Positions 8,459 through 31,456 of a stretch of 33,814 nt of DNA are shown piece after piece. Where the stretch lies: assembly GCA_017994055.1 (NCBI GenBank), contig JAGOLL010000021.1, forward strand, positions 1 to 33,814. Direction: 5' to 3'. The position numbers were made by a program, and so were the translations under genes. Under the pieces are notes generated by a model. That model saw nothing but the letters and a program-made list of their open reading frames with translations. It was not told the DNA's origin and ran no database searches. Origin of the DNA: Methanothrix sp. (GTDB lineage Archaea > Halobacteriota > Methanosarcinia > Methanotrichales > Methanotrichaceae). Position 1 is the stretch's first letter, and each line of letters begins with the position of its first letter.

Positions 8459-10342
8459 TCACCCCTTGTCCAGCAGCCGGAAAGGGACGGACTTGTGGTC
8501 CAGCTCTCCAAAAGCTCCTAGAAGATCTACCTTTATCTGGTATTCGCCCGCCGTCCAGAAGCTGGTCTCCCAGCGGGCGGAGAATATTCCATTGCCGTCG
8601 AAGTCGTCCATGGGTATCTCCATGTTTCTGTCCGGACCGATGATATTGGCATTTATTGCCCTGACCTCACCCTTGCCCTCCGCTTCGATCATGACTGGCT
8701 CGCCCACCACCGCATCCTCAAGGTTCAACTCGACATCTCCCAGAGCAGGGGAAGAGAGAGTAGATCGATCTCTGTTAAGGCTTTTCAGGCCTGCAGTGAG
8801 ATTGAGAGCCCCATATCCGAAAATGTTGTCCCGCCCCGAGGGCCCCAGGTCGTCGGATGTCTTGAGCAGAATCCTCTTTACATCGGGGGGCGACAGGCTG
8901 CTGTCCGCCTCCAGCAGTATGGCCGCTCCACCAGATACCAGGGGAACGGCCATGGATGTGCCGCTCACCGAGCTTTGATCGCTCTTGGAGCCGGCCAACG
9001 CGGAGACAACATCCACACCCATTGCGACCAGATCGGGCTTGATCTCGCCGCTAGCCGCAGGACCGCGGGAGGACAGCTCGAATATGGCGCCGGAATTGTC
9101 TATAGCTCCCACGGTGATCACATTCTCCGCCTCCCCCGGCACGACAATGGAAGCCTCTGCCGGCCCGGAGTTCCCTGCTGCTACGCACATGACCAGCCCC
9201 TCCCGCACCATCCTGTTGCAGGCCTCATCCAGAAGGGATGAGGCCCCGGAAGGACCTTCACCGCCTACGGAAAAGGATATGATCCGAATGTTGTAGAGAG
9301 CCTTATTCTCCAGACACCACTCCAGAGCCTTGAGCGCATCGGAGGTATAGCAAGCTCCATCCCGGTCCATGACCTTTATCACCACCAGCCCAGCATCCGG
9401 GGCCACTCCCATGCCTCCGCCGCTGCCGATCAGGCTGGCGCAGTGGGTGCCGTGGCCGTTGTCATCATAAGCCTCGCTCTGGTTGTTGACAAAGTCCTTG
9501 AAGGCCAGAATCCTGCCGGACAGCGCCTCATGATCCTTGTCGGCCCCGGTATCGATCAAGGCCACATTGACTCCCTTTCCAGTATAGCCCTTATAGCTTC
9601 TGGGATCATCGATTTGACCCGGAGAGCTTTTAATGGGCTGTTTTCCCGGCTGCGCCAGCACCCTGAGCTTCTGATCCTTGTATACGGCTTTTACGCCCTT
9701 GCTGCCGGCAATCTTCTCCAGCTTGTCTCTGGAGACGGTCAATGCAGATATGGGGAGCAGGCGAAATTGGCTTGATCCGGATTCGAGGCCGCTGGCATTG
9801 CTTTCGTGAAGGACTATAACCCTTTGCTCCCCTACCCCCTGCTCTTCCAGGCTGTCCTCAATGCCATTGCCATTGAGATCATTGGGATCCCTGATGGTAA
9901 GAGCCCTCGATTCATCCTTGGCGGCATTGCCGGATCTGTCCACTGCCACTATGGTCACCTTATAGTGTGCGGGAGGCAGATTGGAGCCGCAATAACCAGT
10001 GAACCTCCCATCTCTATCCAGGTCCAGCATGAGGTTCATGCGACTGCCAACTTCGGCATACACGGTCTCAATTCCGCTCTCATCATGGACATAGGCATTG
10101 ATCTCTGCTCGGGGCGATCCAGTCTTCAAAGATGAAGGGCTGACGCTCACACCCATGATGACCGGAGGGCGGCCATCATCCTGGTTGGAGTTGAAATAGC
10201 TGGTATACTCTTTCTCAAACCAGATGCTGGCCTTGTTCTTCTGCACAGCATCCTGTGCCGGAAAGCCAGCTGCAAAAGCCGCAAGGCTCAGAAGAACTGC
10301 CAGAAGAATAAGATGGGCAATAGATAGGGCTTTCACTTTCAA
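8459..10342 (-). CDS. Secreted subtilisin-like serine protease (S8)
   Basis: 627 residues. A signal peptide covers about residues 1-28. An Ig-like segment follows (about 58-150, ending in a Ca-binding-like DLNGNGIEDSLEE), then an I9-like propeptide region (about 172-230), then the S8 domain. The catalytic triad is Asp264 (ALIDTGAD), His297 (NGHGTHCAS) and Ser463 (SGTSMAVP), with oxyanion Asn391 (AAGNSGP). A C-terminal beta domain of about 110 residues ends without a membrane anchor. The start is TTG at 10342; an in-frame GTG lies 6 bases later. It acts outside the cell, probably on surface proteins (inference). It lies 62 bases after the second rhodanese gene, probably in the same transcription unit. 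The sequence QKNKASIW just after the signal peptide resembles QKNRVGIW in the first rhodanese protein. Confidence 0.95.
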   Translation of the reverse strand: MKVKALSIAHLILLAVLLSLAAFAAGFPAQDAVQKNKASIWFEKEYTSYFNSNQDDGRPPVIMGVSVSPSSLKTGSPRAEINAYVHDESGIETVYAEVGSRMNLMLDLDRDGRFTGYCGSNLPPAHYKVTIVAVDRSGNAAKDESRALTIRDPNDLNGNGIEDSLEEQGVGEQRVIVLHESNASGLESGSSQFRLLPISALTVSRDKLEKIAGSKGVKAVYKDQKLRVLAQPGKQPIKSSPGQIDDPRSYKGYTGKGVNVALIDTGADKDHEALSGRILAFKDFVNNQSEAYDDNGHGTHCASLIGSGGGMGVAPDAGLVVIKVMDRDGACYTSDALKALEWCLENKALYNIRIISFSVGGEGPSGASSLLDEACNRMVREGLVMCVAAGNSGPAEASIVVPGEAENVITVGAIDNSGAIFELSSRGPAASGEIKPDLVAMGVDVVSALAGSKSDQSSVSGTSMAVPLVSGGAAILLEADSSLSPPDVKRILLKTSDDLGPSGRDNIFGYGALNLTAGLKSLNRDRSTLSSPALGDVELNLEDAVVGEPVMIEAEGKGEVRAINANIIGPDRNMEIPMDDFDGNGIFSARWETSFWTAGEYQIKVDLLGAFGELDHKSVPFRLLDKG

Positions 10343-10407: not shown

Positions 10408-11445
10408 TTAAAAAGAGGTTGAATTGGCCTGCCAATCCCGCCAGGAATATATTGAGGCATTATAGGCCAGGAAGGTCAAAGAAAGCCAGATCATTGATGC
10501 TTTGACCCCGGTATTGGTATAGACCACAACCGGCCTTTTCTTATCCAGGGATGAGAATAGGTGGCCTAAAGCCTCATCATCCTTTATCCTCTTGCCTTCT
10601 AAGACCCGGTCATAGGGGATATTTATACTGGAGGGGATCGAACCCCTCAAAAATTCCTCCGGGCTCCGGGCATCTATGATCTGGGCATCTCCGCTTTTTA
10701 CAAAAGGATATGATGCCAGAAGGCCTTCCTCCATTTTGAACGTATAATTAACCGGTTGAAGATCAAGCGCCCTGGCAGCAGTCGGCTTTCCTGCCTTTAC
10801 CCAGTCGTCTAATCCCCCATCCAACAGGCTCACATTCCTGTGACCGAGATACTTCATGATCCAGTAGACATAGCTGGCCGCTGACGGCCCTCCCCCGCAG
10901 GGCTGGCATTCGCCGTAGATGAGCACTGCGTCATACCGGCTTATGCCGGATTGGCCCAGGACCGCCGCCATCTCCGGTGCAGTCTTGAGAGAGCCATCCG
11001 AGAGAAAATCGGTATAGGGAATACTTATGGCACCGGGTATGAATTCAACTGGCTCAGGACTGATATCGAGAATTATCTTGTAGTTGTAAACATCCTGCAG
11101 CCCAGCCAGCACCTCTTCCCTTCCAGCCCTTTTATTCACCTCTATCTCTACCGATCCATCCTCGGCTGAATCTTTTAGTGGAGACTCATTTAATTGCAGA
11201 GACTGAGTCGAGAAAAGCAGCAGAGTAGGGCGGGAGGTGAGCTCTGGCCTGAAATCGAAAGCCGATCTCTCTGCTGCCTGGCGAGCCGCATGCTCTTCAA
11301 ACAGCAGTCCTGTCCAGGCAGGGAACGGCCCCCCCGTGCCATCCGCTGATGCCGCTCCGCTGAATGATATGGCCGCCGCTAAGAGCAGGAAGATGGAAAC
11401 GGCTTTCACTGTATGAAGCCCGGCTTTAACGGATATGCTCTTCAT
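10408..11445 (-). CDS. Secreted tandem rhodanese-domain protein, second copy
   Basis: 345 residues with a signal peptide (about 1-34) and two rhodanese folds: about 112-215 (DISPEPVEFIPGAISIPY to LLDGGLDDWVKAG) and about 245-340 (IIDARSPEEFLRGSIPSSIN to the end). In ordinary tandem sulfurtransferases the catalytic Cys is in the C-terminal domain; here that loop reads VVYTNTGVKAS (309-313) and has no Cys. The only two cysteines of the protein are C180 and C183 in the N-terminal loop GECQPCGGGP. A CxxC dithiol or metal site is therefore more likely than classical thiosulfate:cyanide transfer, though a persulfide on C180 or C183 is possible. The ATG overlaps the stop of the paralogue upstream by 4 bases, indicating coupled translation. 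Confidence 0.88.
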   Translation of the reverse strand: MKSISVKAGLHTVKAVSIFLLLAAAISFSGAASADGTGGPFPAWTGLLFEEHAARQAAERSAFDFRPELTSRPTLLLFSTQSLQLNESPLKDSAEDGSVEIEVNKRAGREEVLAGLQDVYNYKIILDISPEPVEFIPGAISIPYTDFLSDGSLKTAPEMAAVLGQSGISRYDAVLIYGECQPCGGGPSAASYVYWIMKYLGHRNVSLLDGGLDDWVKAGKPTAARALDLQPVNYTFKMEEGLLASYPFVKSGDAQIIDARSPEEFLRGSIPSSINIPYDRVLEGKRIKDDEALGHLFSSLDKKRPVVVYTNTGVKASMIWLSLTFLAYNASIYSWRDWQANSTSF

Positions 11446-12593
11446 GCTGTGGAGTTTAGAGCGGTTTGCTGGATCTTTTGGTTGACATAGTAGTTCTCAT
11501 AGGAGTAGAGCCGGGCATCATAGCCCAGCAGCTCCAGAGCAAACCAGACCAGAGACGCCTGGATGCCGGTATTGGTGTAGACCACCACCGGCCTGTCTCT
11601 ATCCAGGATGGCGAAGACCCGCTCCAGAGTGGATTCATCCCTGAGCCTGTTGCCTCTGATCACGCTCTCGTAGGGGATATTGATCGCTCCTGGAATGGAG
11701 GAGATTCCGAAATCCACTATGCTTCTGGCATCCACTATCTGGGCCTGGCCGCTCTCCACATAGCCATAGTCTGCGCTGAAATTGGAGTTTATCTCCGGGA
11801 TGTAGGCCTTGGCCGGCAGAACCGAGGCTTCTTGGGAGGTGGGCAGCCCGGCTGCAGCCCAGTCCTCAACCATGCCGTCCAGTACCTTCACATTATCGTG
11901 TCCCAGAGACCTCAGGATCCAGTAGACGAAGGTGGCAGGCGCAGGCCCTCCGCCGCAGGGCATGCACTCTCCATAAACGACGACCTCATCCTGGCGGGAT
12001 ATACCGGCATTGCCCAGGAGGGCCGCCAGCTCGTCCTCTCCTTTAACCACGCTATCGTTCAAAAACCGGTTATAGGGGATGACAACGGAGCCGGATATGT
12101 GCTCTGCAGCTTCCTCACTGATGTCCAGAAAGACGGTCCCGTTTGCTGCCGCTTGCAGGGGTGCGATCATGCTCTGTGCCCTCTCGCTGCGAACTATGGC
12201 CAGCTCATCCTCTGCCACCCTGGGGAGAGAGCTCTTCTCCATAGCCTGGCTCTGGCTGGAATTGTCTTCTGCGTCCATGCTTGGCCCGGATTCATTAGCG
12301 GATTGAACAGCGGAGGTATTAGACTGCTCAAATCCCGATAGGGGCTTATTCCAGATCCCCACCCGGTTCTTCTGAGCCGTGTTCAAGCCGGCCATGACCG
12401 TCTCTGACTCACCGGCATCGGGATTGCCGATCTCATCCAGCTTGGCCATTGGATCCCAGCCGCCGCCGCCCTGGCAGGCCTCGCAATATGCTTCTCCCGC
12501 AGACGCTCCATTTGCCAGCACCAATAGCGCCAATAGGGCTACGCTGACTGCCCCCCAAGACCAGGAGCTCGAATATGATCTCAAATGCTTCAT
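11442..12593 (-). CDS. Secreted tandem rhodanese-domain protein, first copy
   Basis: 383 residues, paralogous to the next gene in the run. After a signal peptide (about 1-32) comes CEACQGGGGWDP (C37, C40), then a Ser/Asn-rich linker, an N-terminal rhodanese fold (about 150-255) with GECMPCGGGP (C210, C213), and a C-terminal fold (about 280-375) whose active loop is VVYTNTGIQAS (339-343) without Cys. The four cysteines form two CxxC pairs. Start ATG at 12593 is preceded by a strong AAAGGGGAG. Gene order suggests cotranscription with the NosD-like protein 42 bases upstream and with the second rhodanese and subtilase downstream. Extracytoplasmic sulfur or thiol chemistry is inferred from fold and location; substrate unknown. 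Confidence 0.88.
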   Translation of the reverse strand: MKHLRSYSSSWSWGAVSVALLALLVLANGASAGEAYCEACQGGGGWDPMAKLDEIGNPDAGESETVMAGLNTAQKNRVGIWNKPLSGFEQSNTSAVQSANESGPSMDAEDNSSQSQAMEKSSLPRVAEDELAIVRSERAQSMIAPLQAAANGTVFLDISEEAAEHISGSVVIPYNRFLNDSVVKGEDELAALLGNAGISRQDEVVVYGECMPCGGGPAPATFVYWILRSLGHDNVKVLDGMVEDWAAAGLPTSQEASVLPAKAYIPEINSNFSADYGYVESGQAQIVDARSIVDFGISSIPGAINIPYESVIRGNRLRDESTLERVFAILDRDRPVVVYTNTGIQASLVWFALELLGYDARLYSYENYYVNQKIQQTALNSTA

Positions 12594-12635: not shown

Positions 12636-14087
12636 CTAAACAGCGCCGCTTCTAGCGGCGACCTTGATCTGTCCCAGACTCTCCTGGAGTTCATTGCCTC
12701 GCTGGTCCTTTGCCAGCAGAACTATATCATATATTCCCGGCAGCAGTAGCGCTGTGGAAAATGAGCCCTGATAAAAGCCGTCGGATATGACCAGCCGGCT
12801 ATAACCCTGGGCCTCCTTTGAATTGGCATAAGCGCGGGCCACAACCTGCAGCAGAGGATGGCGCGACTGCAGATCGACCTTGATGGCAATGCTGTCTCCC
12901 ACCCTCAGCTGGTATGGATGGATCTCTTTGCTCAGGATGGATATTGGCCTGACCTGGCCGCCCATTACCGGATACCTGTCCGCGGAGGTCGAACTGACGG
13001 CATAGGGCTCATCCCCAAACCCGTCCCTTCCGGGCGTATCCTGGCCGGAGCCCTCCATCTCGTCCCGGCCCGTATAATCGCTCCAGAGGTTTCCGCCCAG
13101 AGGGTACTCTCTATTCCAGATGTTGCTACCGCGATCGTCAGCCTGGATGATATTCTCGATAAATCGATTGCCGTAAATGCTATTATGCCCTGATTCCAGG
13201 AATATTCCAGTCTGGCTCTCGGAGATGTTGTTGAATGAAACTGTATTGCCCTCGGAGCGGCTCTGGATCTGCAGGCCGTAGCGGCTATTGTGATTTATCT
13301 CATTTCCGCTGATGTGATTGCCCCCCGAGCCCTCCATCAAGGTGATCCCGGCCACAGCGTTGCCCTCGATGGTGTTGTTTTCTATTAGATTGCCGGTGCA
13401 GTTGAAGCGCAGATCCAGGCCGGAGTTGATGTTCTTCGACAGCTCGTTATTCCGAATGAGATTGCTGCCGCAGTCCCTGAACATATAAAGGCCATACATA
13501 TTCCCCTGAAGCCTGTTTCCTGTGATGGTATTGTTGTTGCAGGAAGGAAAGAGGTTGATGCCGTAGGCTCCATTGCCTATGGCCTCATTGTCGGCGATGA
13601 GGTTATGGTTGGAGTTGGATAGGTATATGCCATACCAGCCCTCCCCCACTATGCCGTTGAAGCTGGCATTGTTGCCGGTTATTATATTGGCATCGGAATA
13701 AAGCAGGGCTATTCCTGGCTGGGCGCAGTGGATGACGGTGTTGTTGCTCACCTTGCAGCCGCGCACCTGCTCCAGCTTGATTCCATAAAATCCGTTTTCA
13801 ACCAGAAATCCGGAGATATTAACTGCATCTGCATTTATGCTCACGCATGCATCCCTGCCTCCGGCCCGAATGACGGCACCTCTTCCAATGAGATTGAGGC
13901 TCTTGTCCACGACAATCTTACTATAGATCCCGGCAGCAACTACCAGGGTGTCGCCGCTGGATGCGGCATCGATTGCAGACTGTAGATCCGAGCCGACCTG
14001 CAGCGTCGCGCCGGACGCAAACGATGATACGACCAAGGCCGCCAATAGGATGCTATAGGCTGTATTTCTCAAGAGATCCACCTTCAC
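12636..14087 (-). CDS. NosD-like exported right-handed beta-helix protein, second
   Basis: 483 residues: signal peptide (about 1-26), then TLQVGSDLQSAIDAASSGD, then about 12 PbH1 coils (for example NLIADNEAIGNGAYGINLF, NTITGNRLQGNMYGLYMF). The helix ends with the NosD signature GGNLWSDYTGRDE and DGFGDEPYAVS. A C-terminal beta-sandwich of about 110 residues (RPISILSKEIHPYQLRVGD onward) follows and may bind a ligand or the envelope. The start is GTG at 14087 or GTG at 14081; neither has a strong Shine-Dalgarno. It heads the minus-strand run into the rhodanese genes and is divergent from the DNRLRE-like gene. Confidence 0.85.
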   Translation of the reverse strand: MKVDLLRNTAYSILLAALVVSSFASGATLQVGSDLQSAIDAASSGDTLVVAAGIYSKIVVDKSLNLIGRGAVIRAGGRDACVSINADAVNISGFLVENGFYGIKLEQVRGCKVSNNTVIHCAQPGIALLYSDANIITGNNASFNGIVGEGWYGIYLSNSNHNLIADNEAIGNGAYGINLFPSCNNNTITGNRLQGNMYGLYMFRDCGSNLIRNNELSKNINSGLDLRFNCTGNLIENNTIEGNAVAGITLMEGSGGNHISGNEINHNSRYGLQIQSRSEGNTVSFNNISESQTGIFLESGHNSIYGNRFIENIIQADDRGSNIWNREYPLGGNLWSDYTGRDEMEGSGQDTPGRDGFGDEPYAVSSTSADRYPVMGGQVRPISILSKEIHPYQLRVGDSIAIKVDLQSRHPLLQVVARAYANSKEAQGYSRLVISDGFYQGSFSTALLLPGIYDIVLLAKDQRGNELQESLGQIKVAARSGAV

Positions 14088-14239
14088 TCAAGCTGCGATG
14101 GGATTAATAAATCTAACGTAGGTGATAAGCAAGATTTTAACCGATCCTTCATCTGTCCCCGGCCTGGCTTACATGGATCACATATGATCGCAAGCCTTTT
14201 TATTTGTTCGATTACATCCAATCTTATGGAGGAATTCAA
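14088..14239. promoter_or_regulatory. Divergent promoter region
   Basis: Between the NosD-like gene (minus) and the DNRLRE-like gene (plus). The plus side has a T-rich CTTTTTATTT box (14194-14203) about 40 bases before the TTG at 14240, and GGAGGA (14228-14233). The minus side has an AT-rich GATTAATAAATC (14102-14113), a possible box A read from the other strand. Confidence 0.45.
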
Positions 14240-14809
14240 TTGAGATACTTGCATTCACTTGTCAGCATCTTCCTGATCCTGGCGGCATCAGCCGCTGCAG
14301 GGAGCTTCACCGCCGAGATGGACGTTGATACTTATGTTGATGCGGAGATGGCGGATCAGAGCTTCTCTGATAGCAATATGCTCTGGACAGTCTCCCAGGG
14401 AGGTGAGCCATCCAAAGAGATATACCTCAGCTTCATCAACATATTGGGATCACAAGGCATATTCGATCCGGAGCAGATCGAATCCGCAACCCTAACCGTA
14501 GACGTTACCCAGGTGGACAAGCCCGGTAAGGTCACTGCTTATTTCCTGCATGGTGCAACACTGAGTACAGCTACCTGGTCCGACAAAGAGGACTATGATA
14601 CCGAATCATCCTCGTCTCCTGTGGAGATAAAAGATGCCGGAAGCTATAATTTTGATGTAACCGGAATCATCAAGAAGGCAGTTGAGACCTGCACCGAGGG
14701 CTGCCCCTACTCCATCGTACTGGTAGCAGAAGATGACGCCTCTATGGCCCTCTCCTCCAGCAAGTCTGAGGGAGATGAACCGAAATTGACGTATATAACA
14801 GCAGAGTAG
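14240..14809 (+). CDS. Secreted DNRLRE/CBM96-like single-domain protein
   Basis: About 189 residues from a TTG at 14240, chosen because GGAGGA (14228-14233) lies 6 bases upstream; the in-frame ATG at 14204 falls at the likely box A and would add a polar leader before the signal peptide. The signal peptide (RYLHSLVSIFLILAASAAAG) is followed by one beta-rich domain: DTYVDAEMADQSFSDSN, FDPEQIESATLTVDV, WSDKEDYDTE, YNFDVTGIIKKAV and a final LSSSKSEGDEPKLTYI. This layout matches DNRLRE-type modules found in surface and carbohydrate-active proteins. Two cysteines (ETCTEGCPY) could form a disulfide. Function beyond a surface role is unknown. Confidence 0.75.
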   Translation: MRYLHSLVSIFLILAASAAAGSFTAEMDVDTYVDAEMADQSFSDSNMLWTVSQGGEPSKEIYLSFINILGSQGIFDPEQIESATLTVDVTQVDKPGKVTAYFLHGATLSTATWSDKEDYDTESSSSPVEIKDAGSYNFDVTGIIKKAVETCTEGCPYSIVLVAEDDASMALSSSKSEGDEPKLTYITAE

Positions 14810-14903: not shown

Positions 14904-14942
14904 ATGGGGATTTTATACTTCTTCAGCATCCTGGTTAACTGA
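14904..14942 (+). CDS. 12-codon minicistron overlapping the Trx-CcdA gene
   Basis: ATG at 14904 encodes MGILYFFSILVN and stops at TGA 14940-14942, overlapping the next gene's ATG by one base (TGATG). A Shine-Dalgarno TAGGAG sits 4 bases before this mini-ORF, whereas the main ATG at 14942 has no ribosome binding site of its own. The arrangement suggests that ribosomes enter at the mini-ORF and restart on the large gene. The peptide is hydrophobic and may have no function of its own. Confidence 0.4.
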   Translation: MGILYFFSILVN

Positions 14943-16081
14943 TGCGAGTCTCAAGCCACATCCTTGCCGCCTGCCTGGTCATCCTACTTCTATATGGCCT
15001 AGCTTTGCCTTACCCGGGTATGGCAGAGGTAAGCGGTGGAGCTGAGGTACTCTTCATAGAATCGCCCGGCTGCACCAAATGCGCTGCAGCAGAGAGAGTC
15101 CTGGAGAAGGTGGGGGAGGATATATCCCTTAACATCAGCAGTTATTATTATTATTCCGATGAGGGGCATCGCATCATCAAGCAGTATGGCTCCAGGGATG
15201 TCCCGTCCATCATCATCGGCAGTGAGGTGATAGACTACCGGGATTATGAGAAGGACGATGCCCTTTTGGAGAGCCTCATACGAAGCGCCCTAACCAACCA
15301 GAGCCCTCCTGTCCCCCCTTCAATCGGCCTTTCCGGCCATGCGGAAAACGATGGCGAGAGAGCGTCATACGGCATATCTGCCTCAGAGATCGATCTAGAG
15401 CAGATCTCCGCTTACAGCATTTCCGCGGTTCTGGGAGCCGGACTGGTGGCAGGATTCAATCCCTGCCTGCTAGGGATACTGGTCTTCCTGGCGGCATCGG
15501 TCCTCTCCACGGCAGGAAGGAGGCGGGATCTGTTGATGATGGTTGCCTTCTTCTCGGCAGGGATATTCACCATGTACTTTCTCTTCGGCCTGGGCATGCA
15601 GAGGCTGCTGGAGACAAAGGCGGTTGCGGATTCCTTTCGCTATATTTTGAGCTTATTTCTCCTTCTGGCCGGCCTCTCCCAGATATGGGACGGATGGCGT
15701 CTGAAGGCAGGCAGGCACTCCATATTCCGCACCGACTGGGCTCTGCCTTACTTCCAGGCTGGAGTGGAGAAGGGACGTTACAGCTCATACTTTTTGATCG
15801 GAGCCCTCTTCTCTCTGGTAAAGGCGCCATGTGTGGGAGCCATCTACCTCGCGATACTTGATCTCTTCTCCGCCAGCAGTTACCTGACGGGTGCGACATA
15901 TCTCCTGTTCTTCAACCTGGGGGTGGTTCTGCCCATCCTCCTTCTGGGGGGAGGCATGGCCCTGGGAATGAGCCCGGAGCAGGTTGACTCCTTCCGCAAG
16001 GATCATCGGGTGGGGATGAGGCTGGCCACCGGCCTGGCCCTGCTGGCCCTGGCTCCCCTGATCTACTGGCAGCTGATCTGA
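14942..16081 (+). CDS. Thioredoxin-like domain fused to CcdA/DsbD-type membrane protein
   Basis: 379 residues. A signal or first membrane segment (about 8-26) is followed by a thioredoxin/glutaredoxin-like domain (about 33-118) with CxxC active site C44-T-K-C47 in ESPGCTKCAAAE and the cis-Pro segment RDVPSIII. A linker leads to six membrane helices of the CcdA type (about 158-379), with the paired intramembrane cysteines C175 (AGFNPCLLG) and C297 (VKAPCVGAIY). Proteins of this design pass reducing equivalents across the membrane to extracytoplasmic thiols, as DsbD/CcdA do for cytochrome c maturation. The main ATG lacks a ribosome binding site and appears coupled to the minicistron at 14904. 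It could reduce secreted CxxC proteins such as the rhodaneses nearby (inference). Confidence 0.88.
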   Translation: MRVSSHILAACLVILLLYGLALPYPGMAEVSGGAEVLFIESPGCTKCAAAERVLEKVGEDISLNISSYYYYSDEGHRIIKQYGSRDVPSIIIGSEVIDYRDYEKDDALLESLIRSALTNQSPPVPPSIGLSGHAENDGERASYGISASEIDLEQISAYSISAVLGAGLVAGFNPCLLGILVFLAASVLSTAGRRRDLLMMVAFFSAGIFTMYFLFGLGMQRLLETKAVADSFRYILSLFLLLAGLSQIWDGWRLKAGRHSIFRTDWALPYFQAGVEKGRYSSYFLIGALFSLVKAPCVGAIYLAILDLFSASSYLTGATYLLFFNLGVVLPILLLGGGMALGMSPEQVDSFRKDHRVGMRLATGLALLALAPLIYWQLI

Positions 16082-24323: not shown

Positions 24324-26366
24324 TCAGCACCTTCGCGAAGTGATGTCCTCCTCCAGGGCTCGGGCGCTCAGGGCGCAATAGCCGTCTTTTCCATCCTCGC
24401 CGTCCATCTGCATCTCAATCTGTGAGGGATCTAAAAAGTCGCTCTGATTGACTTCCTGCAACGCCGGACAGGCGCTGCTGATATTGCTGGCCTGGCAGGA
24501 TATGCCGCCCCTTCCCGGCCCGGACCAGGAGCCGAGGGGATTGGCCTCCAGTACAGAGATATTCCGAGCTGTCACCGATCCGCTGCTGTAGCTTCCCACG
24601 GCTGCAGCCCGGTTGATGATATCGCTCTGGCAGCTCTCTACATCCAGATTGAGGCCTATGCTCAAGGAGGCCCCTATGGCCAGGTGCAGTATTGTCCAGT
24701 TGGAGCTATTGCCGTCCAGGCGGCTGGGCTGCAATGTGGAGTTGATGAATCTGGCACCCGGCGGAAAGAGGTCCTGCAGGAATATGGGGCCCAGGGCCGC
24801 GTTTCCATCATTGCATAGGGTGATGGTATATCTGGCCACATCCTCGACCTTCCAGCCGTCCTTGCGGAGGTAAAGATGGGGGTGATCATATCGGGCTGCT
24901 CCGGAGAGGATGATCTTCCGCTTGACCAGATAGTCACCCATGAGAATCTCCTCTGCCGCCAGCTCAAGGCTACGATTGCCACTGGAGCTTCCCAGGTATG
25001 CTACCTGCAGCCTGGATCGGCCGGAAAAGGACGACTCGCTCTCCCGCTCTCTGGGGCTGGATGATACGGCACTCATATTCAGCCGGCTGGCGTGGGAGTG
25101 CTCCTCGGAGATGAGGCTGCTCTCGGTGCGGGAGATCATGCCCTCAAACCATTTTTGAGATATATTCAGGTCAGTATATGCGCTTAAGGGCAGGCTCAAA
25201 TTCTGAAAAGATGCCTCAAGCTCCTTTGTCGATGAGCCGGAGACGCTGTCCATACTCTCATTGGATCGATATTCACCGCTACCCCACTCGTAGCTCCTCT
25301 GGGGGCCAATTGCAGCATCCCTGGCCACATAGCCCCGCCCAGAGGAGCTTCGCTCCATCATTACCCCCTGGCCCAGGTCACCAATGCTCTCGTGGATATG
25401 AAATGATCCGGCATAGTCCTCTTGGGAAATTGAGGGCTTGCCACTCCCGCTTCTGTCCTCTGGAAGCTTGAGCATCCCCAGATGGGCCAAGCCCTCCAGG
25501 CAGGAATTAATCTTCATCAGGGACTGGTTTTCGTCCAGGTTGAACAGGCTCTCATCCTGCAATGAGGAGGAATATCGATACAACTCCCGGACGGTAGTGT
25601 TAGTGATGCCGTTTTTGGCCCTCACCTCCTCATGCCAGGGAGAAGAGATGCTTTTGTCGATCTCAGGCGGAGAGCTGTTCTTCGGATGGCTCTCTGCCCT
25701 TATGCTTCTCTCCAGACGGATGGACTTGTTGGCGGTAAGAAAGTCCAGCTCCTGCTGGCACTCATATTCTCCGCTGCCGTGCTCGCGCAAAGATAGCTCC
25801 GTTCCCGCCTCGGCCAGTATCTGTACACTGGCGGAGGTGGAGAGCTGCATCTGATCGGATGTAACGTGGACCCGGTTGATCAGGGACGCAGCTGGCCGGG
25901 AGGTGCTGTAGTCGTGAAAAGAGCGCATGAAGCCATGGCCGGTGACAGTCTGGCTGCTATGGTATTCGACATCGATTCTGGGCACCCGGATCTTGAGATC
26001 TATCTCCAAGCACTCTCCGGGCGCGAGATAAGGAAAATGCCAGGCTCCATCCTCTGCCATCTCCGGCCAGACCGAGAGCAGCTCTACCGGCATGTCGAAG
26101 ACATCCCGCACGGTGATGTTTGTGGCCGGCTGGCCGCCCTTATTGCAGACGGTGATGATATAGTCCACCTCCTCGCCACGCCGGACCGCCGCATGCAGTG
26201 GCTTCTTGGTCACCACCAGGCGGGTCTCATTGAGAACCGGGGTATAGATGCAGATGGGAGATCTTCTCCCCAGCTCATCGCAGCTGATGGCAAAGCAGTT
26301 CTTCAACAGGGCACCATCGGGAAGATTCATTGACCAGCACCTGAAGGGCGATGCTTTGGCTTTCAC
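24324..26366 (-). CDS. DUF11-repeat surface protein, C-terminal part of a split gene
   Basis: 680 residues if started at GTG 26366 (ATG alternative at 26330); neither has a ribosome binding site. It begins in the middle of a DUF11 domain: LPDGALLKNCFAISCDELG is the domain's usual ending and continues the interrupted domain of the gene upstream. A complete DUF11 unit follows (about 45-130, LVVTKKPLHAAVRRGEEVDY to LEIDLKIRV), then a low-complexity Ser-rich stretch (about 195-470), and a second DUF11 unit (about 500-620, VARYTITLCNDGNAALGP to LEANPLGSW). No signal peptide and no C-terminal anchor is seen. It is probably the 3' part of one approximately 1,490-residue exported protein rather than an independent gene. 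Confidence 0.7.
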   Translation of the reverse strand: MKAKASPFRCWSMNLPDGALLKNCFAISCDELGRRSPICIYTPVLNETRLVVTKKPLHAAVRRGEEVDYIITVCNKGGQPATNITVRDVFDMPVELLSVWPEMAEDGAWHFPYLAPGECLEIDLKIRVPRIDVEYHSSQTVTGHGFMRSFHDYSTSRPAASLINRVHVTSDQMQLSTSASVQILAEAGTELSLREHGSGEYECQQELDFLTANKSIRLERSIRAESHPKNSSPPEIDKSISSPWHEEVRAKNGITNTTVRELYRYSSSLQDESLFNLDENQSLMKINSCLEGLAHLGMLKLPEDRSGSGKPSISQEDYAGSFHIHESIGDLGQGVMMERSSSGRGYVARDAAIGPQRSYEWGSGEYRSNESMDSVSGSSTKELEASFQNLSLPLSAYTDLNISQKWFEGMISRTESSLISEEHSHASRLNMSAVSSSPRERESESSFSGRSRLQVAYLGSSSGNRSLELAAEEILMGDYLVKRKIILSGAARYDHPHLYLRKDGWKVEDVARYTITLCNDGNAALGPIFLQDLFPPGARFINSTLQPSRLDGNSSNWTILHLAIGASLSIGLNLDVESCQSDIINRAAAVGSYSSGSVTARNISVLEANPLGSWSGPGRGGISCQASNISSACPALQEVNQSDFLDPSQIEMQMDGEDGKDGYCALSARALEEDITSRRC

Positions 26367-28728
26367 CCGGGTCGAGATGCGGGCAGGTCCAGAAGAGAGT
26401 ATGACTGCTATTCCAGGTAGGAGAAGGATCAGCAGAGATGAAGGTTACGCCAGTGTCCAGCTCATCGGTGATATTCACATTATTGGCTTCGCTGCCTCCC
26501 AGATTCTCATAGGTCAGAGTGTAGGTGAGAAGCTCTCCCACCGCAGCAGGGTTGGGATCGGCGGTCTTGTTGATGTACAGGTCCATGACATCCACTATCG
26601 CTGATTGATTCCTGTTGTAGTTGTTCAGTCTTGGCACCCCGCTTCCCGTGCGCTCCTCCTGCCACCCTCCCGGCTGGCTGGTCCAGCTGAGATGGGCCGG
26701 GACGACAAAACTATCCCCTGGCTGGCCCTGGCAAATGGCACTGAAACGGATGACCGAGCTCTCACCGATCATATAGTCCAGGGAGTCGATCTTCCAGCTG
26801 AGGTCCTGCTCATGGAATGATGATGCTGCAGCGCCGGTTAGGACCTCCGCGGATCCCGGCATATAAGCGAGGCCGGCGGGAAGGAGAGCCTGCAGCTCTA
26901 GGTCGAAGGCTGAAGCCTCGCTATATGCGGTGTGAGATAAATTGAGCAAGAAAGAGACGCTATCGCCTGGAGCGACAAAAGCGTGAGCCGGCCAGATCTC
27001 CAGATGCAGATCCGGCTCGATTATGGCGATGGGACCGGATGCATCTGCATCTATCTTTCTGGCCCCGCCTTCCAGCCAGGTCATGGTAGCATTTGTTCCT
27101 GCGAGATGAGATCCATTCTGGTTGCCGGCAATATTTGGCAGAAGGCAGTCATATCTGAGTTCGATCTGCTGAGCAGCCCCAATATCACCGAAAAACCAGC
27201 AGATCTGCTGGCTGCCGTCCAGGTTGTCCTTCCGAGCTACCTGCAGGGGATCTCGACCCTGCCAGGAGAGGCTACTTTCGTTATAGATCAGGCCGCCTGG
27301 AATGGTATCATTGATCCACAGGCGGCTGGCGCCACGGGGCAAGTCGGCAAAAATAGTAAAGGGCACGGATTGGCCTATGGTCAGGCTGCGACTCTGATCC
27401 GGCTCCTTGGCGATTGCAGTTCTGGGGCTGAGGATAATGGTCTGCTCTGTCTCCTGACAGGGAGCGGGGCCCCAGGCCAGGGAAAAGATGCATGAATAGC
27501 TGCTTTTTGTGGCCACTGCTCTGGCCTTGATCTCGATCTCTTCTCTTCCTCCCGGCGGGAGAGGAGAGAGACTCCTGCGGGAGAGGCTGGAACTCGTGCC
27601 TGAAAATTGCAGTCCATCGGAGAGGGAAGCATTGAGAATGACATCATGGGCTGTTCCATTCCCATGGTTTTCCAGAATGACTGCCCAGGTTACAGTATCG
27701 CCCTTGGCGATATCGAAGCGATCCGGCTGGGCGGAGAGGCTCAGATTTGCTCTGCCGATGGTCATCCTCCTGGGCAGCGAGCTGAAGCTGCCGGAAGCTG
27801 TATCCATCTCGGCATAGAGCTGGACGAGACCAGGCGCGCTGCATCCGGCGCTGAGGTTTAACTTAAGACTGAGGGATTCTCCGGCATAAATTTCACAGGG
27901 CTTCCCACCATTGCAGAGGCCTGGCGTAGCTTTCTGGAATTTCCAGTCTGAATCGCTGTCAATATCCCTGCCGTCGGAGAGGCGAGCCCAGCAGAGATCA
28001 TCGTTCTTGCTGTCCTTCGCCGCATTGGTGCGATCCACCTCTTGCCCTGTCGAGTCTAGAAGAGATATGCTGCAGGAGTAGGAGTTGATCAGGCTGCCAT
28101 TGGTCCAGTTGATGGTCAGATATCCACCCGGCTCGATGACGGTATCAGTGGGGATTGATACCGTTTTATTATAGTAGCTGTCCAGAACAATCCAGTTGCC
28201 TACCTTCACACTGGCGGCAGTGGGATTGTAGATCTCTATCCATTCCATGTTGGTGTCGGAGCCGGGTGGATTCGCCTCCCATTCGTTGATAACCAAATGC
28301 CGGAAAGATTTCACTGCCTCGGTCAGATCGCATCGCAGCCATCCTCCTACCAAAGAGGGCTCGACCTCTCGCAGTTTGCCCGACATCTCCATCCTGGCAT
28401 TTCCGACATATTGCAGACCATTGGGAATCAGGAGGCCTGCAGACAGACCGCCGGCATCCTCGTGGCAGGCGAATAATACCTCAAAGGCATCCTGGCCGGA
28501 GACATCCATAAACTCTGGCGCGGTGAGATTAAACGAACTGGATGCAGCCAGAGGGCTGATGATGAGGACGATAAGGAGACTGATCAGCAGGAAGGGACTG
28601 AAATAGCGGATCGGCCTATCCCAAATAGAGATTACATTAAGAATTAATTCATTATAAGTTTTCAACATATCAAAAGTATATTTTTGAGTTTTTTGATTGC
28701 ATATCATTGAATTTAGAAATATCAACAT
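26275..28728 (-). CDS. Lamin-tail/DUF11 surface protein, N-terminal part of a split gene
   Basis: 817 residues. A charged lead and hydrophobic segment (about 40-62, PFLLISLLIVLIISPL) form a signal or anchor. A lamin-tail domain follows (about 146-265; LVINEWEANPPGSDTNMEWI, IEIYNPTAASVKVGNWIVLD, DWKFQKATPGLCNGG), then at least three DUF11/conserved-repeat modules (about 330-430, 480-600, 710-800). Start ATG 28728 has GGAGATG 6-7 bases upstream; internal ATGs exist but lack this site. The last module is cut short: after VLVNES the frame reads RWCPVEELLCHQLR and stops, while the normal continuation LPDGALL lies one base out of frame. The gene therefore appears broken or frameshifted at about 26320-26330. 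Confidence 0.75.
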   Translation of the reverse strand: MLIFLNSMICNQKTQKYTFDMLKTYNELILNVISIWDRPIRYFSPFLLISLLIVLIISPLAASSSFNLTAPEFMDVSGQDAFEVLFACHEDAGGLSAGLLIPNGLQYVGNARMEMSGKLREVEPSLVGGWLRCDLTEAVKSFRHLVINEWEANPPGSDTNMEWIEIYNPTAASVKVGNWIVLDSYYNKTVSIPTDTVIEPGGYLTINWTNGSLINSYSCSISLLDSTGQEVDRTNAAKDSKNDDLCWARLSDGRDIDSDSDWKFQKATPGLCNGGKPCEIYAGESLSLKLNLSAGCSAPGLVQLYAEMDTASGSFSSLPRRMTIGRANLSLSAQPDRFDIAKGDTVTWAVILENHGNGTAHDVILNASLSDGLQFSGTSSSLSRRSLSPLPPGGREEIEIKARAVATKSSYSCIFSLAWGPAPCQETEQTIILSPRTAIAKEPDQSRSLTIGQSVPFTIFADLPRGASRLWINDTIPGGLIYNESSLSWQGRDPLQVARKDNLDGSQQICWFFGDIGAAQQIELRYDCLLPNIAGNQNGSHLAGTNATMTWLEGGARKIDADASGPIAIIEPDLHLEIWPAHAFVAPGDSVSFLLNLSHTAYSEASAFDLELQALLPAGLAYMPGSAEVLTGAAASSFHEQDLSWKIDSLDYMIGESSVIRFSAICQGQPGDSFVVPAHLSWTSQPGGWQEERTGSGVPRLNNYNRNQSAIVDVMDLYINKTADPNPAAVGELLTYTLTYENLGGSEANNVNITDELDTGVTFISADPSPTWNSSHTLFWTCPHLDPGESQSIALQVLVNESSRWCPVEELLCHQLR

Positions 28729-30034: not shown

Positions 30035-31456
30035 ATGCAGATATCGGCAATACTTATCATCCTGGGACTGGCATTGCTTCTTGCCTCACCTCATACGGCT
30101 CTTGGCGAATTGCCATCAGTAGTCCCGGCTGACGAGATTATGGTCAAGATCAGGCTGGGATTGCCTGTAGAATACGATAAGGTTGCTATAAACGGCAACC
30201 TGACATCAGAGCGGCTGGGCTTGACCGCCAAGCAGATCCTTCGCATACCCTTTGAGGTGAAGATGCCGGCATCAGATGAGCCGATGCAGGCCAATTCTTC
30301 CATTGTGATCAAAAATTCCATCGTATACGGGAGAGTCGACTTCGGCAACACCCTATTTCATAAGCCAGTGGTATTCGAAAATACGTTCTTTATGGAAAAT
30401 GCATCTTTCGAAAATTCCATATTTGAAGAGGATACAGGATTTGTCCATTCCATGTTCTTGAAGAATGCTAGTTTTGCCGATTCAAGTTTTAATGCAAAAG
30501 CAAATTTCTCCCAGACTTATTTCAAAGGATCTGCATCTTTTTATGGCACTCAATTCGGCGGCATTGCCGATTTCAGCCTGGCTCGATTCTACACCGATGC
30601 ACAATTAGCCTCCAGCCAATTTAATTCAAATGTGGCATTTGCCAAGACGGATTTTAGAGGAAAAAACAACTTCAAGGAAGCAATATTCGGCCAGGAAGCT
30701 CAATTCAATAAGACCAAATTCGGAAAAGAAAGTACTTTCGAGAGGACAATTTTCGCTGGCTCGGTTCAGTTTTCAGGACCGGTCTTCAACAGCACGGCAG
30801 ATTTTATTTCTTCTCAGTTTACCAAAGATGCCCGCTTTAATGAGGCTCAGTTTATGGGCCCGGCACTCTTCGCAGGAGCCAGATTCAGCGATCTGGCTGA
30901 ATTTAAAGACTGCCATTTCCCCGCTGGCGTAGACTTCACCGGATCCGATTTCGGGATTGATGCCACATTCTGTAATACATCTTTTGGCCAAAGAGCCGAC
31001 TTCACAGCCAGCGATTTCCTCGGATTTGCAGACTTCTGCGGCTCAAATTTTGCATGCGATGCAGATTTCAGCAATTGCAGCTTCAGGGGTCCAGCGGACT
31101 TCAGCAGATCCGCATTTAGTGAAAAGATGAATCTGTATGATGCCCAATTCAGAAGGAATGTGCACTTCGAAAGCAGCAAGATTAATAAAATCAATCTGAC
31201 TCAGGCCAGGTACGAATGGCTCTTTCTAAAATGGGACTCCATAAACCATCTTGAGTTCGATGACAACGCATATCAAATGCTCATCAATAACTACAAAAAA
31301 CTGCAATGGTATGGAGATTCATCGGATTGCAACTCCACTTACATGGGGACGGCAGCACAGGAAGCGCCCAACCAAAGTCATCTGTGGATCATAGATGGAA
31401 TAAGATCCATTGTCCTGGGCGGCAATTCCAGCCACCTCCCAGACCTTATCTTTTAA
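30035..31456 (+). CDS. Secreted pentapeptide-repeat protein
   Basis: 473 residues: signal peptide (about 1-23, ISAILIILGLALLLASPHTALG), a short N-terminal domain (about 25-85), then roughly 55 consecutive pentapeptide units with Phe at the central position and small residues at flanking positions (for example FENTF-FMENA-SFENS, SFADS-SFNAK-ANFSQ). These fold into a square right-handed helix. The last 65 residues (YEWLFLKWDSINHLEFDDNA onward) resemble the linker that in related methanogen proteins leads into an ion-channel domain; here that domain is absent and the ending NSSHLPDLIF is soluble. Whether this is a natural short form or a truncation is not decidable. Function unknown; it probably acts at the surface. 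Confidence 0.85.
   Translation: MQISAILIILGLALLLASPHTALGELPSVVPADEIMVKIRLGLPVEYDKVAINGNLTSERLGLTAKQILRIPFEVKMPASDEPMQANSSIVIKNSIVYGRVDFGNTLFHKPVVFENTFFMENASFENSIFEEDTGFVHSMFLKNASFADSSFNAKANFSQTYFKGSASFYGTQFGGIADFSLARFYTDAQLASSQFNSNVAFAKTDFRGKNNFKEAIFGQEAQFNKTKFGKESTFERTIFAGSVQFSGPVFNSTADFISSQFTKDARFNEAQFMGPALFAGARFSDLAEFKDCHFPAGVDFTGSDFGIDATFCNTSFGQRADFTASDFLGFADFCGSNFACDADFSNCSFRGPADFSRSAFSEKMNLYDAQFRRNVHFESSKINKINLTQARYEWLFLKWDSINHLEFDDNAYQMLINNYKKLQWYGDSSDCNSTYMGTAAQEAPNQSHLWIIDGIRSIVLGGNSSHLPDLIF

Follow-up and report, generated by a model that had tools for sequence, protein, structure and literature searches.

The window, that is, the whole stretch of Methanothrix sp. DNA analysed here (33,814 nucleotides), displayed two neighbouring genes for secreted tandem rhodaneses, P0001 and P0002, whose open reading frames overlapped by four bp (ATGA) on the minus strand. 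The features considered were:

8459..10342, minus strand: secreted subtilase (PF00082) with a thiol-type HGTHC motif, last gene of the apparent operon and a conserved neighbour
10408..11445, minus strand: P0001, secreted tandem rhodanese of 345 aa (open reading frame, PF00581 twice, AlphaFold2 model)
10516..10518, minus strand: Thr310 codon of P0001, at the site of the canonical catalytic cysteine (YTNTG)
10885..10914, minus strand: GECQPCGGGP, N-domain active loop of P0001, residues 178-187
11442..12593, minus strand: P0002, secreted tandem rhodanese of 383 aa (open reading frame, PF00581 twice)
11943..11972, minus strand: GECMPCGGGP, N-domain active loop of P0002
12474..12485, minus strand: CEAC motif of P0002, behind the signal peptide
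12636..14087, minus strand: secreted NosD-like beta-helix protein, encoded by the first gene of the apparent operon; a conserved neighbour (profile and neighbourhood comparison)
14204..14809, plus strand: secreted DNRLRE/CBM96 protein with an invariant CxxxC (C163/C167), divergently oriented and adjoining the Trx-CcdA gene
14942..16081, plus strand: P0003 (Trx-CcdA), with a signal peptide, a thioredoxin-like CTKC domain and a CcdA/DsbD transmembrane domain; cysteines at 44, 47, 175 and 297

Because of their order and spacing, the NosD-like, P0002, P0001 and subtilase genes appeared to form one operon, which agreed with the original prediction that the rhodanese pair is made together with a subtilase and a beta-helix protein. 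Secretion of both paralogues, also predicted, was supported by the N-terminus of each, a hydrophobic, signal-like segment that ends in AxA fashion. The two rhodanese folds ascribed to each protein were recovered as well: profile PF00581 matched two stretches in both (78.4 and 76.9 bits against a cut-off of 22.2; E values of 6e-22 and 1.9e-21), and a Foldseek search with the P0001 model retrieved tandem sulfurtransferases with a probability of 1.0. By profile, number of domains and fold, the pair belongs to the PF00581 rhodanese superfamily. Solved relatives in the PDB were thiosulfate and 3-mercaptopyruvate sulfurtransferases. Two large neighbouring secreted-looking proteins (680 and 817 aa) with DUF11-like repeats were encoded at positions 24324-28728 of the window, and a secreted protein with pentapeptide-like repeats (F.N..F...ASF) at 30035-31456; members of the latter's cluster (cluster 28) also lay near related rhodaneses elsewhere.

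P0001 contained exactly two cysteines, C180 and C183, both in the N-domain active loop, while P0002 contained exactly four, C37/C40 (CEAC) and C210/C213 in the loop. The original reading of GEC(Q/M)PCGGGP loops, of a CxxC made of the only cysteines of the smaller protein and of an additional CEAC behind the signal peptide of the larger one was thus correct. So was that of a cysteine-free C-terminal loop: in an ungapped alignment of equal length, YTNTGVKAS faced YCRIGERSS of Mycobacterium tuberculosis CysA3 (3aax), the catalytic cysteine being replaced by threonine (Thr310 in P0001, Thr340 in P0002) and the arginine by lysine. An AlphaFold2 model of P0001, computed from a 57-sequence alignment, displayed pLDDT values above 90 nearly throughout both domains and of 86 for the block that contains the loop. 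In it, C180 and C183 lay in the loop that joins strand 174-177 to helix 188-199, the strand-loop-helix position of the N-domain active loop; the original prediction, for which a position far from that loop would have been fatal, withstood the modelling. Both residues were conserved to at least 90 % in the 57 homologues, at a mean column identity of 27 %, and are therefore not there by chance.

The N-domain loop was about five residues longer than its canonical counterpart (YGDN-----ANWFAAY against YGECQPCGGGPSAASY), so that the CxxC occupies an expanded loop, while the C-domain loop lost its cysteine. Hence the proposal that the catalytic cysteine had moved to an N-terminal CxxC held for the loss at one site and the CxxC at the other, though not for a simple move. 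In fold, domain order and overall architecture the two proteins resembled tandem sulfurtransferases of types TST, MPST, SseA and CysA2/CysA3, which also display PF00581 twice; they differed by the missing C-loop cysteine (0/68 relatives, see below), the expanded N-loop CxxC, the signal peptide and extra CxxC arms. They fall outside TST/MPST because the defining C-loop cysteine is absent, and the 3-mercaptopyruvate sulfurtransferase equivalog model NF008557 returned 74.5 bits against a cut-off of 250.

Homologues were found in all 50 Methanotrichaceae genomes searched (11 genera), with two to ten matches each, numbers that include paralogues devoid of the motif and perhaps some canonical rhodaneses. 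The motif pattern itself was present in 35 of these 50 genomes and in none of the 188 other genomes of the same class. Across the phylum it was restricted to Methanotrichaceae apart from one isolated match, which lay about 120 kb from the rhodaneses of its genome (G326) and was taken as chance. When 84,980 species genomes of bacteria and archaea were scanned for CxxC-loop peptides, 50 loci emerged, all with titles of Methanotrichaceae, Methanosarcinales or uncultured archaea save one contig of a 'Candidatus Methanosuratincola' MAG (L122, JACIVP010000034.1). The flanking genes of this contig were syntenic with, and 87-93 % identical at the protein level to, those of a Methanothrix soehngenii-like genome; it was considered a Methanothrix contaminant and not a case of spread outside Methanotrichaceae. 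The search for GECxPCGGGP beyond the window, suggested with the original prediction, therefore led to Methanotrichaceae only. CxxC-loop rhodaneses are a multi-copy protein family specific to Methanotrichaceae, and what had been described as a paralogue pair in one genome is a real pair but no oddity of that genome. A literature search of incomplete coverage returned no description of this cysteine arrangement.

A tree was built from 68 members of the family, to which five canonical tandem rhodaneses from the same phylum were added. The N-loop CxxC was displayed by 64 of the 68 members, four homologues being devoid of it, and the C-loop cysteine by none; the five canonical relatives showed the reverse pattern, with a C-loop cysteine and no N-loop CxxC. 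Three changes on the tree accounted for this distribution. The loop sequence varied around a constant CxxC (GECxPCGGGP, DYNCPTCLGGP, GDCFSCGD and GNCPNCGG).

In most family members the signal peptide was followed by a second CxxC or a similar cysteine pair. This N-terminal CxxC was absent from P0001 and its close relatives, a small clade (genomes G000, G021 and G040) that also lacked a C-terminal domain. Long members (445-604 aa) carried an added C-terminal domain, usually with GCATC, which brought most of them to three CxxC motifs. The domain was modelled as a seven-stranded, Ig-like beta-sandwich, in which residues 37-94 formed a disordered insertion that holds the CATC; structure searches with the domain gave weak, generic Ig-like matches. 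One homologue from the genome of the window (L163:2998-4341; G000:C36, TGA at 9360) displayed a TGA exactly at the second loop cysteine (GECMP-TGA-GGGP) of an otherwise open frame of 444 codons. Selenocysteine was considered and rejected: neither tRNA-Sec nor SelD was found above cut-off in this genome (a MAG, 86 % complete), nor was an RNA element found for this homologue. With 40 codons of the frame one step away from TGA, the codon is probably a nonsense mutation or a consensus error.

Close to the rhodanese pair, P0003, which the original prediction had passed over, matched the DsbD_TM profile with 35.7 bits (cut-off 27.1). Its CTKC and both CcdA transmembrane cysteines were invariant (22/22, and 19/19 where aligned), C175 and C297 being found in 22/22 sequences. 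By profile and by its two conserved membrane cysteines, P0003 belongs to the CcdA/DsbD transmembrane family. Trx-CcdA homologues were present in all 50 Methanotrichaceae genomes, and at least 42 out of 65 loci, in 10 of the 11 genera, lay within 8 kb of a family rhodanese, where chance would give about 3 % per locus. This count is a lower bound, as it considered rhodaneses among the matches listed and many contigs were short; most unlinked loci were on contigs without a rhodanese among those matches, and the one in genome G038, counted as unlinked, was in fact linked. In the genus of M. thermoacetophila, Trx-CcdA was unlinked to a rhodanese and was instead accompanied by an ArsP-type permease and an ArsR regulator. 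In several genomes the Trx-CcdA and rhodanese genes were consecutive and on the same strand.

The NosD-like, subtilase, divergent DNRLRE and Trx-CcdA genes were conserved neighbours. At loci of the window's type, the NosD-like, subtilase and M50-like peptidase genes were maintained with others as a block. Conserved cysteines were also encountered in the neighbours, numbering six in the NosD-like protein and four or five in the subtilase. The DNRLRE protein displayed its CxxxC in 20 out of 20 homologues and nearly always adjoined Trx-CcdA; the DNRLRE/CBM96 protein of the window (14204-14809) is a possible redox partner. In another genome (G044), secreted curlin-like repeat proteins (Q.N.A.I.G..N), possibly amyloid surface proteins, were encoded downstream of a family rhodanese (L065:9525-11140).

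The neighbouring membrane redox gene makes extracellular thiol chemistry, involving disulfides or sulfur, probable for the family. It also bears on a structural explanation, according to which the loop CxxC would be a permanent disulfide stiffening a non-catalytic rhodanese pair that serves as a binding or cell-wall module. In its favour, the C-domain is clearly not that of a sulfurtransferase, pseudo-enzymes are common among rhodanese domains, and long members end in an Ig-like domain, which suggests a surface module. A static disulfide would nevertheless have no need of Trx-CcdA, CxxC disulfides are seldom purely structural, and the cysteine pair persisted while the rest of the loop changed; this explanation is very improbable.

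A persulfide carrier or sulfurtransferase was also considered, in which sulfane sulfur donated by thiosulfate, polysulfide or a protein would be accepted by one loop cysteine; the second would resolve the persulfide and release sulfide, and Trx-CcdA would re-reduce the pair. The rhodanese fold with its active loop in place and the nature of the solved relatives are consistent with it, the loop could just as well carry a persulfide, and CcdA/thioredoxin partners are also employed in sulfur pathways, as in the case of SoxV/SoxW. It is rather unlikely, considering that the C-loop cysteine and arginine were replaced by threonine and lysine and that no sulfur-oxidation genes were recognised among the recurrent neighbours; we also know of no rhodanese that uses an N-domain loop CxxC for persulfide transfer.

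Among known systems, rhodanese and DsbD chemistry are found together in TsoB, a rhodanese/DsbD fusion-like selenoprotein (NCBIfam NF045694; PMC13188914) apparently associated with an ArsR/SmtB-type regulator (TsoR). Here, in contrast, rhodanese and CcdA were encoded by separate genes and used cysteine instead of selenocysteine; model NF045694 returned 15.2 bits against a cut-off of 805 and no fusion was seen, which sets the proteins apart from TsoB. With its CcdA-type membrane domain and thioredoxin-like CTKC, P0003 resembled the DsbD/CcdA proteins that work with DsbC, DsbG or CcmG/ResA. Extracytoplasmic dithiol proteins usually draw their reductant from proteins of the DsbD/CcdA type. The proposed acceptor differs from DsbC, DsbG and CcmG/ResA in having a rhodanese instead of a thioredoxin fold, and for the same reason P0001 is no member of the thioredoxin-fold disulfide isomerases (DsbC/PDI).

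Several loci displayed, on one strand and in this order, genes for an ArsP-type permease, a DNRLRE protein, Trx-CcdA and a rhodanese. The permease (ArsP_1, PF03773) was encountered beside or near Trx-CcdA in L066, L068, L074, L081, L087 and L160-L162; several of these loci also contained ArsR-type regulators and DGC-domain proteins and resembled an export module for metal(loid)s or thiol compounds. Since ArsR/ArsP genes accompany rhodaneses at such paralogous loci, the family might consist of extracytoplasmic metal(loid) thiol proteins whose CxxC would bind arsenic, copper or mercury, or help to reduce it, and either hand it to efflux by an ArsP-type permease or protect against it. The ArsR and ArsP genes beside Trx-CcdA in the genus of M. 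thermoacetophila and the NosD-like protein in the operon of the window would fit such a role. It is nonetheless unlikely: the window locus contained neither permease nor ArsR, the permease stayed below cut-off with the NCBIfam models of SaoE and of the SO_0444 Cu/Zn exporter, and beta-helix proteins of the NosD type are frequent among the surface proteins here, copper binding being no more than a family name.

The original prediction had offered a redox or metal-binding dithiol protein or a persulfide carrier. A redox-cycled dithiol is favoured among these because of the conserved Trx-CcdA neighbour, and sequence separates the options no further. Judging from the sequences, we tentatively propose, at somewhat less than even confidence, that P0001 and P0002 are extracytoplasmic dithiol/disulfide redox proteins built on a rhodanese fold and recharged by Trx-CcdA. 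The C-domain, having lost its sulfurtransferase cysteine, would serve as a scaffold, and the CxxC of the N-domain loop would be the working site, cycling between dithiol and disulfide. Electrons from the cytoplasm would flow through the CcdA-type membrane domain and the thioredoxin-like CTKC of P0003, or of a paralogue, to the loop CxxC. The flexible CxxC arms of long members, one following the signal peptide and the other in the Ig-like domain insertion, might hand reducing equivalents to substrates. The likeliest of these are disulfides in secreted proteins of the envelope, among them products of the same gene block. Several points weigh against the dithiol redox proposal. The loop of a rhodanese is made for binding an oxyanion or keeping a persulfide stable, and we know of no disulfide isomerase with a rhodanese fold. 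Trx-CcdA was unlinked in the genus of M. thermoacetophila, four homologues lacked the CxxC, and the permease and ArsR genes that accompany rhodaneses at paralogous loci point towards metal(loid) chemistry.

Methanothrix is a major aceticlastic methane producer. Its sheath has hoop-linking disulfides and is partly held together by disulfide bonds (PMC6242892, PMC11576556). In a 2024 survey, genomic context gave no sheath assembly factors and only DsbB and DsbD were noted; MspA is regarded as a secondary sheath component (PMC11576556). A family member with GECRPCGG was present in G046 (G046:C1:1157841-1158677; L076:7842-8678) and, by gene order after the equivalents of Mthe_1069 (mspA) and Mthe_1070, fits Mthe_1071 (sseA) of M. 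thermoacetophila. The latter figures only as a qPCR target in PMC10470525, where it is annotated plainly as a rhodanese and its cysteine arrangement is not described. In G046, the mspA-fitting gene, the gene at the position of Mthe_1070 and the family rhodanese followed each other with gaps below 40 bp (L076:4522-8678). A general linkage with sheath genes was considered and rejected, leaving a lead only: MspA homologues were detected in two of the 50 Methanotrichaceae genomes, the syntenic locus of G043 displayed a small ORF in place of the rhodanese, and MspA is secondary. The idea of a sheath function was therefore not based on adjacency to mspA, which is not conserved. Sheath proteins were also present in lineages where the CxxC-loop motif was not found, and a sheath role of the family is put forward as a hypothesis only.

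The family occurs in Methanotrichaceae only and in several copies; as it is also secreted, contains many CxxC motifs and is linked to Trx-CcdA, it is a concrete candidate for the missing extracytoplasmic thiol system. In its widest form, which is rather unlikely as a whole, the proposal would be a class of extracytoplasmic disulfide/persulfide catalysts on the rhodanese fold, with a switch from the C-domain to the N-domain CxxC, arms acting as shuttles and recharge by Trx-CcdA, dedicated to the disulfide-linked envelope (S-layer/sheath) of Methanothrix. The family would be a clear case of a rhodanese shifting its active site between domains.
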